Position numbers and translations under genes: made by a program
Shown: piece after piece, positions 19,518 through 27,147 of the stretch
How the letters are laid out: the number at the start of each line of letters is the position of its first letter
Position numbering within the stretch: the stretch's first letter is position 1
Notes under the pieces: model-generated
Seen by the model: the letters and a program-made list of their open reading frames with translations, nothing else
Told to the model about the DNA's origin: nothing
Database searches by the model: none
Assembly (NCBI GenBank): GCA_030603745.1
Contig: JAUVXE010000017.1
Span: forward strand, 1 to 36,530
Direction: 5' to 3'
Length of the DNA stretch: 36,530 nucleotides
From: Coriobacteriia bacterium
Lineage (GTDB): Bacteria > Actinomycetota > Coriobacteriia > Anaerosomatales > SLCP01

Positions 19518-22283
19518 GTGGCCGAGACCGTGTCTTCCACCCCTGCGCGCCGTCCCCGTACGCTCACCGTCATCGTGTTCGTCGTGCTCTTCTTCGGCCT
19601 GCCGTTCCTGGCGTGGCTCGCGACGTTCCTCACCGACTACCTGTGGTTCGTCGACCTCGGCCAGGAGGAGGTGTTCGTCACGACCCTCGTGAGCCGGGTG
19701 GCGACCGGCCTGGCGTTCGGGGTGGCGGCGTTCCTGCTCTTCTTCGTGAACGCGCGGATCGCGCGCTCGATGGCACCGCGGGCGGTCCTGCTGTCGGCGA
19801 GTGGCGAGATGCCGCCGCAGTTCGAGGAGTTCGTGGCGCAGCTGCGCGGCACGCTCGGGCCGATCGTCGACAAGGTCGTGCTCTGGGGCTCGGCCGGTCT
19901 CGCGCTCATGCTCGGGCTCGCGATGTCGGCCAACTGGGACCTCATGCGGCTCGCGCTCGGCGCGGTGCCCTTTGGCGTGACCGACCCGCAGTTCGGGCGC
20001 GACGTGTCGTTCTTCATGTTCACGCTGCCGGCGCTCCGCGCCATCGCGGACTGGCTCACCCCGCTCCTCGTGCTCGTCACGGCGTTCACCGCGGTGGTGC
20101 ACCTCGTGGACGGCGCCATCCAGCCGTGGGCCCGGCTCAAGGGCTTCGCTCCCCACGTCAAGGCGCACCTCTCGGTCCTGCTCGGCCTGATCGTGGCGAG
20201 CCGGGCGTTCGACTACTACCTGCGCATCTTCGAGCTCAACTTCTCGCCGAGGGGGCAGGTCACCGGAGCCTCCTACACCGACGTGAACGCGCAGCTCCCG
20301 GCGTTGCGGATCCTCATCGCGATCGCGCTCGTCTCGGCGGCCGCGCTCCTCGTCAACATCCGCTTCAAGGGCTGGCGCCTGCCGATCATCGCGCTCACGG
20401 TCTGGGTGGGGGCCTCGTTCCTCGCCGGCAACCTCTATCCGAGCCTCATCCAGCAGTTCCGCGTGGCGCCCAACGAGGCCTCCGCCGAGGCGCCCTACAT
20501 CGCCCGCAACATCGAGGCCACGCGCGCGGCCTACGAGCTCGAGGACGTCGAGACCAGGCCCTTCCCGGCCGCCGAGACCCTGACCGCCGAGGATGTCGTG
20601 GCCAACGAGGACACGCTCGACAACGTGCGCCTGTGGGACCCCAACATCGCGGGGCAGACCTACCGCCAGCTGCAGGTCATCCGGACGTACTACGAGTTCG
20701 CCGACGTCGACATCGACCGCTACGAGGTCGATGGCCGCATGCGGCAGGTTCTCGTGTCCGCCCGTGAACTGGACACCTCCCAGCTCGCCGAGCAGGCGCA
20801 GACCTGGCTCAACCAGCACCTCGTCTACACGCACGGCTACGGCCTCGTGATCAGTCCGTCGAACGAGGCGGACAGCCGCGGGTTCCCGAACTTCTGGGTG
20901 GGCGACATCCCGCCCGAGTCGATCGAGGGTCTCGAGGTCGAGCAGCCGGCGATCTACTTCGGCGAGATGACGCGGGACTACGTGATCACGAACACCGGGA
21001 TCGCGGAGTTCGACTACCCGGTGGGCGAGGGGCGCGCCGAGACGTTCTACGAGGGGGAGGCCGGCGTGAAGGTCGGCTCGTTCCCGCGCCGCGCCGCGTT
21101 CGCGCTGCGGTTCGGGGCGCCGCAGATCGTCTTCAGCCAGTACATCGACTCGGAGAGCCGGGTGCTGTTCGATCGCGACATCCTCACGCGCGTCGAGAAG
21201 CTCGCGCCGTGGCTCACGCTCGACAGCGATCCCTATCCCGCTCTCGTCGACGGCCGCATCGTGTGGATCGTCGACGCCTACACCACCTCGAACCGCTACC
21301 CGTACTCGCAGTACTTCCGTGGCGTGAACTACGTCCGCAACTCGGTGAAGGTCACCGTCGACGCCTACGACGGCACGACCACGCTCTGGGGCTTCGACCC
21401 CTCCGACCCGATCCTCCAGGCGTGGCAGGGCATCTTCCCCGGCCTCATCACCGCCGAGGCGGAGATCCCCGACGCGATCCGCCGCCACTTCCGCTACCCG
21501 GAGGGCCTCTTCGCGCTGCAGGCCGAGGTCTACAAGACCTACCACATGACCGACCCGCGCGACTTCTACAACAAAGAGGACGCGTGGGAGCTGCCCGGTG
21601 AGCGGGAGGGCAGCCCCATGGAGCCGTTCTACGTGCTGATGCGGCTGCCCGGCGAGGTCACCGAGGACTTCCAGATGATCCAGCCGTTCACGCCGCGCAA
21701 CCGCGACAACATGATCGGCTGGATGTCGGTCAAGTCAGACCCCGAGGACTACGGCAAACGGGTCGTCTACACCTTCCCGCAGGGGCGGGTGATCCTCGGC
21801 CCTGAGCAGGTGGGCGCGCGGATCAACCAGGACGACGTCATCGCGCCGCAGCTCACGCTCTGGAGCCAGCGCGGGAGCGACGTGATCTTCGGCAACATGC
21901 TCGTGGTGCCGCTCGAGGACTCGATCGTCTACGTGCAGCCGCTCTACCTGCAGGCCGAGCAGACGGCGATCCCCGAGCTCGTGCGGGTGCTCGTGGTCTA
22001 CGGCGACAAGGTCGAGATGGCGACCGACCTCGAGGCCGCGCTGCTAGCGGTGTTCGGTGAGCGGCCCGCCGGCGAGCCCGGCCCCGGCGAGCCCGGCGCT
22101 CCGGGAGTGCCTGCCGACGCCGCGCGCGCCGCCGAGCTCTACCGCCAGGCGATCGACGCGCAACGCGCCGGCGACTGGGCGGAGTACGGGCGGCTCATCG
22201 AGGAGCTCGGTCGCGTGTTGCAGGAGCTTTCCGGGCCGGTCGTGCCCGCGGCTCCCTCTGCCGAGGAGACCGTCACGCCCTAG
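19518..22283 (+). CDS. UPF0182 family membrane protein
   Basis: 921 residues from GTG 19518; a GTG at 19530 is equally possible, because AAAGGA at 19511-19516 is too close to the first and far from the second. The first third holds about seven membrane helices, beginning VIVFVVLFFGLPFLAWLAT, with the family's WFVDLGQEEVF loop after helix 1. The rest is a large extracytoplasmic region with long conserved blocks (VRLWDPN, YYEFADVDIDRY, EFDYPVGEG, YPYSQYFRGVNYVRNSVKV, VMRLPGE). The C-terminus has a Pro/Gly/Glu linker and an acidic helical end. UPF0182/COG1615 proteins occur mainly in actinobacteria and some cyanobacteria; their function is not established. It lies nine bases after the HD-GYP gene. 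Confidence 0.93.
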   Translation: MAETVSSTPARRPRTLTVIVFVVLFFGLPFLAWLATFLTDYLWFVDLGQEEVFVTTLVSRVATGLAFGVAAFLLFFVNARIARSMAPRAVLLSASGEMPPQFEEFVAQLRGTLGPIVDKVVLWGSAGLALMLGLAMSANWDLMRLALGAVPFGVTDPQFGRDVSFFMFTLPALRAIADWLTPLLVLVTAFTAVVHLVDGAIQPWARLKGFAPHVKAHLSVLLGLIVASRAFDYYLRIFELNFSPRGQVTGASYTDVNAQLPALRILIAIALVSAAALLVNIRFKGWRLPIIALTVWVGASFLAGNLYPSLIQQFRVAPNEASAEAPYIARNIEATRAAYELEDVETRPFPAAETLTAEDVVANEDTLDNVRLWDPNIAGQTYRQLQVIRTYYEFADVDIDRYEVDGRMRQVLVSARELDTSQLAEQAQTWLNQHLVYTHGYGLVISPSNEADSRGFPNFWVGDIPPESIEGLEVEQPAIYFGEMTRDYVITNTGIAEFDYPVGEGRAETFYEGEAGVKVGSFPRRAAFALRFGAPQIVFSQYIDSESRVLFDRDILTRVEKLAPWLTLDSDPYPALVDGRIVWIVDAYTTSNRYPYSQYFRGVNYVRNSVKVTVDAYDGTTTLWGFDPSDPILQAWQGIFPGLITAEAEIPDAIRRHFRYPEGLFALQAEVYKTYHMTDPRDFYNKEDAWELPGEREGSPMEPFYVLMRLPGEVTEDFQMIQPFTPRNRDNMIGWMSVKSDPEDYGKRVVYTFPQGRVILGPEQVGARINQDDVIAPQLTLWSQRGSDVIFGNMLVVPLEDSIVYVQPLYLQAEQTAIPELVRVLVVYGDKVEMATDLEAALLAVFGERPAGEPGPGEPGAPGVPADAARAAELYRQAIDAQRAGDWAEYGRLIEELGRVLQELSGPVVPAAPSAEETVTP

Positions 22284-23920: not shown

Positions 23921-24127
23921 ATGTCAGACCGCACGCTCACCGTAGATGACGTCAAGCGCCGCGCCGAGGAGGTCCGCGACCTCGCGGTCCACGAGGTGAG
24001 GCAGGCGACCGCCGCCGACCCGGCCAAGCTGCTCGCCGCCGGCGTGCTCGGCGTGCTCGTGATCGCGTCGGTCGCCTACTACCTCGGCTCGCGGAAGTGC
24101 CCGGCTTGTGGGCCCGCGGAGCTCTGA
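23921..24127 (+). CDS. Small single-span membrane protein, unknown
   Basis: 68 residues from ATG 23921, which has GGAGGG four bases upstream. An alternative ATG at 23903 overlaps the holin-like stop (ATGA) and would add six residues. The N-terminal half is a charged helix (VDDVKRRAEEVRDLAVHEVRQ) followed by AADPAKLLAAGVLGVLVIASVAYYLGSRK, one membrane helix cut at the AADPAK boundary, and a short tail with the pair CPAC. This layout resembles DUF3618-like or holin-linked small proteins. No function can be given; the CPAC tail could bind a metal or form a disulfide. Confidence 0.7.
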   Translation: MSDRTLTVDDVKRRAEEVRDLAVHEVRQATAADPAKLLAAGVLGVLVIASVAYYLGSRKCPACGPAEL

Positions 24128-24167
24128 GACGGCTCCCGGCCCGCGCGACCGTGTCCACGGCCCTGCC

Positions 24168-24587
24168 GTGCCCGGTCCGCTCATCGAGCGGGTCACGGTA
24201 GGGGAGCGTACGCTCGAGGCGCTCGTCCGCATCCCGCCCGGCCTGCCGCTGCGCACCTCGGCCGTGCCCGGTCTCGCCGAGGAGGTCCTCGCCGCGCTCC
24301 CCGGCATCCGCCGTCATCGCTGCCGGTGCGGCTCGGCCCACGGCATCGTCGCCGAGCTCGCCGACACGGAGGCCGCGCACCTGCTCGAGCACGTCGCGCT
24401 CGAACTGATGGCCGAGGCGGGCTCGCCCCGCACGCTCGCCGGCGAGACACGTTGGGACTTCGCCGCCGACGGCCCGCGGACCTTCCGTGTCACGCTCGAG
24501 TACGTCGACGACCTCGTGGCGCTCTCGGCGCTCCGCGAGGGCGCCGCGCTCGTGGGGCGGCTGCTGGGCGGCGGGCCCGCGCGTTGA
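24168..24587 (+). CDS. Stand-alone protein resembling the cyanophycin synthetase N-terminal domain
   Basis: 139 residues from GTG 24168; the frame is open back to GTG 24108, and neither start has a good ribosome site. The sequence follows the pattern of the CphA N-terminal domain: a VPGLAEEVLAALPGIRRH.C segment (about 33-51), a short Gly/Ala loop with HGIVAEL, then the strongly CphA-like block AAHLLEHVALELMAEAGSP (about 69-87), a GETRWDF strand and FRVTLEYVDD. In CphA this domain precedes ATP-grasp and Mur-ligase domains, and the EHVALEL stretch is highly conserved. Here neither catalytic domain is attached. The call is by memory of motif and needs a profile search. Confidence 0.65.
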   Translation: MPGPLIERVTVGERTLEALVRIPPGLPLRTSAVPGLAEEVLAALPGIRRHRCRCGSAHGIVAELADTEAAHLLEHVALELMAEAGSPRTLAGETRWDFAADGPRTFRVTLEYVDDLVALSALREGAALVGRLLGGGPAR

Positions 24588-24613
24588 CCGCCCGGCCGCA
24601 CCGGTGCTACCCT
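24584..24613 (+). promoter_or_regulatory. Promoter of the T-box / aminotransferase / ddl transcript
   Basis: TTGACC at 24584-24589 (5/6 to consensus) and TACCCT at 24608-24613 with an upstream TG (24605-24606) are separated by 18 bases. The predicted start near 24620 gives a leader of 300 bases, the usual size for a T-box leader. The -35 overlaps the last bases of the preceding gene. Confidence 0.75.
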
Positions 24614-24619
24614 TCGCCC

Positions 24620-24890
24620 TAACCTCGGCCGAGCGCCTGAGGCGAATACGATCCACCGAGGACGTGAGGGAAGAGGGCGCCATCAGCCCGGCCACCCCTC
24701 CGAAGTCCCCCGCCAGGGCGGCCCGCCGAGACGGCCGCCGGAAGCGGGTCGGCGCCGGACCGGTATACCGGCACTTCGAGGCCCGCACCGTCGGGCGCGC
24801 GACCAGCACCGCGGGTCGCACGCAGCGGCACCGCGGGCGAAGATAGGTGGTACCGCGACCAGCCCCTCGCCCTATCAGGGAGGGGCTTCT
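24620..24890 (+). promoter_or_regulatory. T-box riboswitch (tRNA-sensing transcription attenuator)
   Basis: The T-box AGGTGGTACCGCG is at 24845-24857. The antiterminator folds exactly as in known T-boxes: GATAGG (24842-24847) pairs with CCTATC (24871-24876), the bulge is TGGTACC (24848-24854), and GCG (24855-24857) pairs with CGC (24868-24870). The competing terminator pairs AGCCCCTC (24861-24868) with GAGGGGCT (24880-24887) and is followed by TCTGTGTTT. TGGT pairs with a tRNA ending ACCA, so the discriminator base is A. A short stem I may be CCTCGG (24623-24628) with CCGAGG (24656-24661) around a CGCC-TGA-GGCG hairpin; its 3' loop, 24645-24655, could hold the specifier, but AUC, ACG and UAC cannot be told apart by eye. 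Confidence 0.93.
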
Positions 24891-24919
24891 GTGTTTCCGG
24901 ACACGTAAGGGGTGTCGCG

Positions 24920-26191
24920 ATGGGTACCGCGAGGATCGTCTTCGACCGCTGGGACGGCCGCTACGCCGGCCGCATGGCCGACGTGCGCTCGAGCGCCGTC
25001 CGCGACCTGTTCGCCGCGGCGAGCAGGCCCGACATGATCAGCTTCGCCGGGGGGATGCCCGATCTCTCCGGGGTGCCCGCCGAGGCGGTCGCGGGCGCCG
25101 CCCGCGACGCGGTGCTGCACGAGGGAGCGTGCGCGCTCCAGTACGGCTCGAGCGAGGGTCGCCCCGCGCTGCGCCGCACGATCGTCGAGCTCATGGCCGA
25201 GAGCGGAGTGCGCCTGGCGGCCGACGACGTCATCGTGACCGCCGGCGCCCAGCAGGGACTCGACCTGCTCGCCAAGACCTTCCTCGACCCCGGCGACACC
25301 ATCATCTGCGAGGGCCCCACCTACGTGGGCGCGATCCAGGCGTTCAGCGCCTACCAGCCCGAGATGGTCTGCGTGCCCATGGACGACGACGGCATGCGCA
25401 CGGACCTCCTCGAGGCCGAGCTCGTCCGCCTCGGCCCGCGCGGGGCGAAGTTCATCTACACGATCCCGAACTTCCAGAACCCCGGCGGCGTCACCCTCGT
25501 GCCCGAGCGGCGGCGTCGCCTGCTCGAGCTGGCGCGCGCCTACGACATCCCGGTGATCGAGGACGACCCGTACGGGCGGCTGCGCTTCGAGGGCGGGCAC
25601 GTCAAGCCGCTCCGCGCGCTCGACCCCGACGTGATCTACCTCGGCACCTTCTCGAAGATCTTCGCGCCCGGCCTGCGCCTGGGCTGGATGACCGCGCCGA
25701 GGCCGATCCTCGCCAAGGTGCTCCTCGCCAAGCAGGCGGCCGACCTGTGTGGCTCGGCGTTCGCGCAGGTCACCGCCGAGCGCTACTTCGCCGGCACGCG
25801 ATGGCGCCGCGTGCTGCAGGGTCTCACGCGCACCTACGCCGAGCGGCGCGACGCGATGCTCTCGGCACTCGAGGAGCACTTCCCGGCAGAGGTCCGCTGG
25901 ACGCGGCCCGAGGGAGGCTTCTTCGTCTGGGTCGAGCTGCCCGAGTTCCTCGACGCCGGTTCCCTGCTCGCCGAGGCGGTCGAGCACGGGGTGACGTTCG
26001 TGCCGGGCTCGGCGTTCTACCCTGACGGCCGCGGGCGCAACTGCATGCGGCTGGCCTTCTGCTACGCTGAGCCCGAGGCCATCGCCGAGGGTATCCGCAG
26101 GTTGGCCGAGGTGATCGAGGACCGCCTCGGCCTGTATCGGGCGTTCATCGACGCGGGCGCGCTGCCCGCTCACGGGGAGGGTGCGGCATGA
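24920..26191 (+). CDS. PLP-dependent aminotransferase, class I (LysN/MocR-type fold)
   Basis: 423 residues from ATG 24920, 30 bases after the T-box terminator. It has the fold-type I aminotransferase residues: N187 in PNFQNPGG, D215 in VIEDDPYGRLRF, Y218, the PLP-binding lysine K246 in GTFSKIFAPGLRLGW, and R253. Opening motifs are ISFAGGMPD (40-48) and LQYGSSEGRPALR (73-85). Closest relatives by pattern are 2-aminoadipate, branched-chain or aromatic aminotransferases of the LysN group. Control by a T-box says it makes or recycles an amino acid sensed by its tRNA. It overlaps the ddl start as ATGA. The substrate is not settled. Confidence 0.92.
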   Translation: MGTARIVFDRWDGRYAGRMADVRSSAVRDLFAAASRPDMISFAGGMPDLSGVPAEAVAGAARDAVLHEGACALQYGSSEGRPALRRTIVELMAESGVRLAADDVIVTAGAQQGLDLLAKTFLDPGDTIICEGPTYVGAIQAFSAYQPEMVCVPMDDDGMRTDLLEAELVRLGPRGAKFIYTIPNFQNPGGVTLVPERRRRLLELARAYDIPVIEDDPYGRLRFEGGHVKPLRALDPDVIYLGTFSKIFAPGLRLGWMTAPRPILAKVLLAKQAADLCGSAFAQVTAERYFAGTRWRRVLQGLTRTYAERRDAMLSALEEHFPAEVRWTRPEGGFFVWVELPEFLDAGSLLAEAVEHGVTFVPGSAFYPDGRGRNCMRLAFCYAEPEAIAEGIRRLAEVIEDRLGLYRAFIDAGALPAHGEGAA

Positions 26192-27147
26192 GCGGCACAC
26201 AGAAGATCGCGGTGCTGATGGGCGGCCGCTCGCTCGAGCGGGAGGTCTCGCTCGTCAGCGGCAAGCGGGTCGCCGAGGCGCTCTCCGAGCGGGGCTACCG
26301 CGTGCTCGCGCTCGACGTGACGCCGGATCTCGTGGAGACGCTCCGCGCCGAGCGGCCGGACGCCTGCTACATCGCGCTGCACGGCAAGTACGGCGAGGAC
26401 GGCACGATCCAGGAGCTGCTCGAGTTCCTCGGCATACCGTACACGGGGCCGGGGGTGACGGCCTCGGCGCTCGCGTGGGACAAGTCGGTGGCCAAGCGGC
26501 TCTTCGCGGCGGCGGGCATCCCCACGCCGCCCTGGATCACGCTCACGGCCGACGCCTTCAAGGAGATGGGGGCGGCGACCGCGCTCGACCTCGTGCCCGA
26601 GGCGGTGGGCGAGTTCCCGCTCGTCGTGAAGCCGTCCAAGCAGGGCTCCGCGCTCGGGCTCGCGCGGGTCGCCTCGGCCGAGGAGCTCCCCGAGGCGCTG
26701 CTCTCCGCGCTCTCCTTCGGCGAGGCGGCGGTCGTCGAGAGGTGGGTCGAGGGCACCGAGCTCGCGGTCTCCGTGCTCGACATCGACGGCGCCCCGGTGG
26801 TGCTGCCGCCGGTCGAGATCGTGGCCAAGAGCGGGCTCTTCGACTTCTCCGCGATGTACACGGCGGGCGAGACCGACTACTACGTGCCGGCGCGCCTGGC
26901 CGAGGAGACCACCGCCGAGGTGCTCCGCCTCGCGCGCGAGGTCCACGCGCTGCTCGGCTGCCGGGACGTGAGCCGTGCCGACATGGTGGTCGACGCCGAG
27001 GGCGGCGTGTGGGTGCTCGAGTGCAACACCTCGCCGGGGATGACCGAGACCTCGCTCCTGCCCATGGCGGCCGCCGCGCACGACATGACCTTCCAGGATG
27101 TGGTAGAACAAGTGGTGCGTGCCGCGCTCGGCCGCCGCGAGCGGTGA
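26188..27147 (+). CDS. ddl: D-alanine--D-alanine ligase
   Basis: 319 residues from ATG 26188, coupled to the aminotransferase. It joins two D-alanines for the peptidoglycan stem peptide, using ATP. Ddl landmarks: GGRSLEREVSLVSG (12-25, E17 in the position of DdlB E15), IALHGKYGEDGTIQELLEFL (62-81), GIPYTGPGV and SALAWDK (82-99), the glycine loop KPSKQGSALGLARV (148-161), and NTSPGMTETSL near the end. Two departures from Escherichia coli DdlB: GSS of the loop is GSA, and the omega-loop YEAKY is FSAMY, keeping the tyrosine but replacing the lysine with methionine. Length is normal. Confidence 0.93.
   Translation: MSGTQKIAVLMGGRSLEREVSLVSGKRVAEALSERGYRVLALDVTPDLVETLRAERPDACYIALHGKYGEDGTIQELLEFLGIPYTGPGVTASALAWDKSVAKRLFAAAGIPTPPWITLTADAFKEMGAATALDLVPEAVGEFPLVVKPSKQGSALGLARVASAEELPEALLSALSFGEAAVVERWVEGTELAVSVLDIDGAPVVLPPVEIVAKSGLFDFSAMYTAGETDYYVPARLAEETTAEVLRLAREVHALLGCRDVSRADMVVDAEGGVWVLECNTSPGMTETSLLPMAAAAHDMTFQDVVEQVVRAALGRRER

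Follow-up and report, generated by a model that had tools for sequence, protein, structure and literature searches.

A probable alanine T-box upstream of an aminotransferase–ddl operon

The leader RNA at about 24620-24919 of the DNA analysed here (the window, 36,530 nucleotides of a Coriobacteriia genome read on the forward strand) is probably a T-box riboswitch that attenuates transcription and has tRNA-Ala(GGC) as its effector, judged from comparative sequence analysis. It precedes an operon of an aminotransferase and a D-alanine--D-alanine ligase (Ddl). The window lies within contig C28 of a 2.14 Mb genome that is 98.5% complete, and whose nearest named relatives are metagenome-assembled genomes of Anaerosomatales and Coriobacteriia. 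A first-pass annotation had read a T-box over this gene pair that calls for a tRNA with discriminator base A, and this outline is supported by the conserved fold and position of the leader, by its bulge and by the overlapping reading frames. The same annotation doubted alanine, because it had put Stem I in the wrong place; comparative folding restores alanine as the most likely amino acid, with tRNA-Ala(GGC) predicted to be read by a GCC codon. What we see directly is a leader of conserved fold, in a conserved position before the same operon, and a matching tRNA gene.

We collected 60 orthologous loci. The exact T-box core, [AT]GGTGGTACCG[CT]G, lies upstream of the aminotransferase start in 56 of them, more than expected by chance, and these yield 42 distinct leaders. 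Of the other four loci, L033, L051 and L055 have no exact motif and L064 is cut by a contig end inside the gene. We aligned 41 leaders, omitting L019 where the contig ends, in one alignment from Stem I to the stem IIA/B pseudoknot and in a second from Stem I to the terminator. The leaders were chosen by the motif, and their conservation therefore stems in part from selection.

The leader has a conserved fold with covariation

In the 41 leaders, 93.2% of the 1944 cells of the nested fold are paired, compared to 83.2% in shuffles (0/500 reach the observed value) and 40.0-51.5% with slid partners, and 33 of the 48 pairs have changes on both sides. The IIA/B pseudoknot is outside this count. The same helices were found unaided by RNAalifold. 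Covariation in Stem I and the antiterminator, the absence of which the first-pass annotation would have held against a T-box, is thus present in the relatives, and the comparative folding that it had proposed gives a single fold with the specifier at 24691-24693.

Stem I (24660-24708) is about 49 nt long, with the layout GGAC-GUGAGGG-AAGA-GGGC-(loop)-GCCC-R-GCC-AC-CCCUCC-NNN-GUCC. Its helices GGAC/GUCC (24660-24663/24705-24708), G-U-GAGGG/CCCUCC (24664-24670/24696-24701) and GGGC-loop-GCCC (24675-24689) are paired in 96.3%, 100% and 100% of cells, respectively, with changes on both sides. With regard to a kink-turn (GA motif) at the base of the stem, the 5' side reads GUGA in 40/41 leaders (CUGA in L031), GA on the 3' side is not conserved, and L031 supports a continuous helix there. 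Comparative folding delimits the specifier loop as AAGA (24671-24674) opposite R-GCC-AC (24690-24695). AAGA is invariant, as is GCCAC (41/41), and the preceding purine at 24690 is A or G. The GCC at 24691-24693, followed by A24694, is the sole invariant triplet in a specifier-like position, and we propose that it specifies alanine. The first-pass annotation had seen a GCC only in the GGGC-GCCATCA-GCCC hairpin and had overlooked this second one, which lies just 3' of it. The apical-loop GCC of that hairpin was considered as a specifier and dropped, since the loop (24679-24685) is variable in sequence and length.

Stem II (24709-24748) is formed by a base helix, CCCGC/GCGGG (99.5% paired, changes on both sides), a variable apical hairpin (76.5% paired) and a conserved, purine-rich internal loop, CAG (24714-24716)/GGAA (24740-24743), which differs from the S-turn consensus. 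GGAA is found in 40/41 leaders and AGAA in L057. The IIA/B pseudoknot (24749-24772) comprises helix IIA, GCCGG/CCGGC (88.7% paired), with an invariant UA in its loop, and the pairing of CGG (24750-24752) with CCG (24760-24762), which recurs in the listed leaders (UCG in L023) and is compensated as AGG/CCU in L031. The F-box reads CCGGUAU in the window and CCGUUA in many relatives. Stem III, GGCCCGC..GCGGGC (24780-24839), flanked by GAG and GAAGA, is 89.5% paired and all of its pairs (7/7) are changed on both sides.

The T-box core AGGUGGUACCGCG at about 24845-24857 is accompanied by antiterminator and terminator alternatives. The antiterminator (24842-24876) consists of helices A1 (GAUAGG/CCUAUC) and A2 (GCGA/UCGC), both 100% paired across the alignment, with one A1 pair appearing as C-G in 20 leaders, U-A in 20 and U-G in 1. 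Between the helices, the 7-nt bulge UGGUACC (UGGU at 24848-24851) agrees with the general T-box pattern UGGNACC. The intrinsic terminator (24861-24896) is the hairpin AGCCCCUC/GAGGGGCU followed by the U-rich UUCUGUGUUU. A terminator-like hairpin with a U-rich tail was detected in 41/42 leaders; L048 failed the rule when a longer hairpin outscored the usual one, which is visible in its sequence. Local energies in the window are -23.4 kcal/mol for the terminator and -11.8 kcal/mol for the antiterminator, so that the terminator is favoured locally, as expected for a default-off switch. The foldable switch of the first-pass annotation is upheld.

Its promoter also recurs. TTGACC-18-TACCCT (24584-24613), which overlaps the stop codon of the upstream gene, matches 8/12 consensus positions, and a permissive search finds a TTGAC-type -35 and a -10-like box upstream of 41/41 comparable leaders; a strict promoter scan did not report the promoter at 24584-24613. 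At the transcript start, a short hairpin, CCUCGG..CUGAGG (24623-24642), recurs as a shape in most leaders with unrelated sequences, and its CCUCGG pairs elsewhere in the window's own minimum-energy fold of that stretch.

The matching tRNA and T-boxes elsewhere in the genome

The genome encodes a tRNA-Ala(GGC) with discriminator A and an ACCA end, which fits the UGGU bulge from which the first-pass annotation had deduced that base. The same rule holds for another T-box of this genome, that of trpE, where a UGGC bulge goes with a tRNA-Trp discriminator G.

This trpE T-box is one of four further T-boxes in the genome (L001-L004, on contigs C3, C3, C2 and C24), found before trpE (UGG), ilvD (GUG), ileS (AUC) and pheS (UUC), where the gene names are putative assignments from reading the translated open reading frames (ORFs). 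They served as controls for the specifier frame. In each, the specifier stands one base before the C-rich strand, as AUC-A in ileS, GUG-U in ilvD, UGG-G in trpE and UUC-A in pheS, positions being taken from alignments for the first three and from the sequence alone for pheS. On this rule the window leader would read GCC-A. A purine after the specifier is preferred in structures (PMC7583486). GCC-A fits this preference and CCA-C does not.

Distribution of the leader

A covariance model built from the leaders (R1), to which the pseudoknot was not given, has one strong match in the window's own genome. Among 296 genomes of the class, which include the training sequences of R1, there are 58 with a match at E<=0.01, namely 57 of the 69 Anaerosomatales genomes, with one match each, and one borderline outsider (G143, E=0.008). 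In 56 of the 57 genomes of the order the match shares its strand with the aminotransferase and lies 10-181 nt ahead of that gene; for G046, a search for the aminotransferase at 1e-80 found none. Across 396 sampled genomes of the phylum, R1 finds members of the order and a single further, borderline match within a coding ORF (G309, E=0.0013), which we rejected. GGTGGCACCGCG at C20, a separate T-box candidate, was dropped as it is inside a coding region.

Of the 62 genomes of the order that have an aminotransferase match, six are not matched by R1. In G010 and G011 the gene is present as fragments, the contig ends in G014, and the leader is eroded or lost in G026, G039 and G015. The promoter and terminator are kept in G026 (L220) and G039 (L221) around a garbled middle, and the whole leader, including the terminator, is lost in G015 (L222). 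In G013 (L033/L223) the promoter and the terminator remain, as does Stem I as far as the specifier; everything from there to the terminator is gone.

Points against an alanine T-box and alternative explanations

Several observations weigh against the reading of the leader as an alanine T-box, and some of them lend weight to other explanations. The first concerns the frame of the specifier. Compensatory changes in L031 fix the Stem I helix one base further, which leaves C24695 unpaired at the end of the loop, and in this register, reading positions 2-4 from the bulge end, as TBDB does by default (PMC7778990), gives CCA (24692-24694). The same T-box would then respond to tRNA-Pro(UGG), which the genome encodes, also with discriminator A. 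We regard the proline frame as unlikely: CCA is followed by C, where a purine would be preferred; in the other four T-boxes of this genome the specifier stands one base ahead of the C run; and neither the aminotransferase nor ddl belongs to proline metabolism. R1 offers no second T-box of the same architecture and other specificity in the genome by which the frame could be fixed (next match E=0.35).

It is considerably less probable that the specifier lies elsewhere in the T-box and names another amino acid. The first-pass annotation had taken 24645-24655 for the Stem I loop, from which isoleucine, threonine and tyrosine emerged as options. This stretch belongs to the 5' linker, which shows a weak AAUA..CAC pattern in close relatives but is poorly conserved across the order, and we dropped it together with those options; for threonine, the discriminator U (two Thr tRNAs read) is in addition mismatched to UGGU. 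Of the other places, the Stem I apical loop (24679-24685) is as variable as described above, and the invariant UA of the IIA loop is accounted for by the F-box pseudoknot.

The architecture of the leader raises a further point. Across the 41 leaders, Stem I has no AGAGA / UGxRA pair for the double T-loop that grips the tRNA elbow, and the AGUA/GAA S-turn is absent from both Stem I and Stem II, where the loops are AAGA/RGCCAC and CAG/GGAA. Transcriptional T-boxes generally require a long Stem I and a short one is typical of translational T-boxes (PMC7583486), which would speak for translational control by a sequestered Shine-Dalgarno sequence, as in actinobacterial ileS T-boxes. We consider this very improbable, as the hairpin that competes with the antiterminator is terminator-like and runs into a U-rich tail in nearly all leaders, the window's included, and the Shine-Dalgarno-like AAGGGG before the ATG lies outside that hairpin in the window. 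With its intrinsic terminator, the leader should act on transcription.

The standard RNA model is silent as well. A check with the Rfam T-box model, suggested by the first-pass annotation, was negative: RF00230 does not match the leader at its gathering threshold (93 bits) or up to E=10, where only chance matches to unrelated families appear, nor does it match the loci of 15 relatives. The four other T-boxes of the genome all score under the gathering threshold too, and RF00230 matches those of trpE, ilvD and ileS end to end, whereas for pheS its match is confined to the antiterminator. That the leader is a simple attenuator, or is bound by a protein, and just looks like a T-box would be allowed by the silence of Rfam and the deduced nature of tRNA binding. 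We find this scarcely credible, given that compensatory changes accompany the recurring core, where two helices enclose the 7-nt bulge, as well as Stem III and the F-box pseudoknot.

Other points bear on the alanine T-box more generally. Folded singly, the sequence does not stand out (z -1.55, 8/100 shuffles as good), and its energy optimum differs from the proposed fold; the sequence is GC-rich and single-sequence folding uninformative. The leader is eroded or lost in the four genomes G013, G026, G039 and G015. Alanine dehydrogenase and alr are encoded elsewhere in the genome, neither at an exact T-box motif, and thus alanine supply is not wholly under the aminotransferase–ddl switch. The evidence is computational throughout, and tRNA binding, the direction in which the switch would respond, the substrate of the aminotransferase and the role of Stem II are deduced from it.

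The genes of the locus

The first gene after the leader (24920-26191, forward strand) encodes a PLP-dependent class I/II aminotransferase of 423 aa (PF00155, 5.9e-33), for which none of the 25 NCBIfam models listed scores above its cut-off. The closest solved chains are an aminotransferase II homologue and multiple-substrate, alpha-aminoadipate and alanine-glyoxylate aminotransferases, and the protein is similar to enzymes of the last three kinds from archaea and thermophiles. The second ORF (26188-27147, forward strand; 319 aa) is firmly identified as Ddl (NF002378 at 338.2 bits vs a cut-off of 243; PF07478 and PF01820). The two overlap in an ATGA, and Ddl follows the aminotransferase in nearly all relatives where the locus extends far enough. 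The pair is distributed more widely than the leader, as other Coriobacteriia (L065-L069, L086) have it without a T-box motif.

For the gene immediately upstream of the leader (24108-24587), the sole match is to the cyanophycin synthetase N-terminal domain (PF18921), and in many relatives a tblastn match to this gene is found ahead of the aminotransferase. A large gene for a UPF0182 membrane protein is found at 19518-22283 of the window (PF03699, 1.6e-290).

Proposed mechanism

We propose that the alanine T-box works as follows. RNA polymerase would start at the TTGACC/TACCCT promoter, and the GCC at 24691-24693, displayed in the internal loop of the compact Stem I, would pair with the anticodon, GGC. 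Stem II, with its CAG/GGAA loop placed by the IIA/B pseudoknot, probably braces the codon–anticodon helix and so stands in for the absent elbow contact. An uncharged tRNA would pair through its ACCA end with the UGGU bulge, GAUAGG would hold CCUAUC, and polymerase would enter the aminotransferase and ddl genes. With alanine on the tRNA, the terminator hairpin (24861-24887) would win. Low alanine charging would raise the aminotransferase, which is perhaps alanine-forming, and Ddl together, and D-Ala-D-Ala supply would be coupled to the alanine state of translation. The first-pass annotation had tied the switch to wall-precursor supply; the gene pair and the switch are supported, and the tie itself we regard as plausible. 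It would link alanyl-tRNA charging, a signal of translation, to the last step of D-Ala-D-Ala synthesis.

Comparison with known T-boxes

The alanine T-boxes described in PMC4695836 and PMC11477304 control alanyl-tRNA synthetase. The window leader would share tRNA-Ala specificity, with a UGGU bulge and discriminator A, with the alaS T-boxes of B. subtilis and C. acetobutylicum, which have a GCU specifier, GA motif, S-turn and AG bulge, whereas the leader is compact, has GCC and precedes an aminotransferase and Ddl (PMC4695836). We found no T-box before ddl in the open-licence literature, subscription journals being mostly outside that search.

With class I T-boxes (the B. subtilis tyrS type, and trpE, ilvD, ileS and pheS in this genome) the leader shares a transcriptional switch, a specifier in an internal loop, a UGGN bulge, the F-box pseudoknot and Stem III. 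Unlike these, it lacks a long Stem I, the double T-loop (consensus AGAGA / UGxRA; PMC7583486) and, in both Stem I and Stem II, the AGUA/GAA S-turn, and it goes undetected by RF00230; T-boxes of an entire order are missed by the standard RNA model.

In the four-class scheme, class IV combines an intermediate Stem I without the double T-loop and a specifier in a side bulge, and is mostly translational, as in ileS (PMC10482949). The leader resembles this class, exemplified by ileS of Actinomyces odontolyticus, in its intermediate Stem I without an interdigitated double T-loop, its specifier in a side bulge between two helices, its Stem II, its IIA/B and its antiterminator-type core. It differs in its intrinsic terminator, its proposed GCC alanine specifier, its position before aminotransferase–ddl and the CAG/GGAA loop of Stem II. 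In class IV an S-turn of Stem II docks on the codon–anticodon helix; Stem II of the leader carries the purine-rich CAG/GGAA loop, which is not of the S-turn consensus. Published accounts describe transcriptional T-boxes as generally dependent on the double T-loop, since the polymerase gives the RNA little time for tRNA capture, and short forms as mostly translational; a conserved short T-box with a terminator makes this rule testable. We tentatively suggest, as a possibility that we put at slightly below an even chance, that these leaders form a separate transcriptional T-box class confined to one actinobacterial order, which lacks the double T-loop and S-turns, reads tRNA-Ala through a compact AAGA/GCC loop, has a new CAG/GGAA brace in Stem II, and sets D-Ala-D-Ala supply for the cell wall according to alanyl-tRNA charging.

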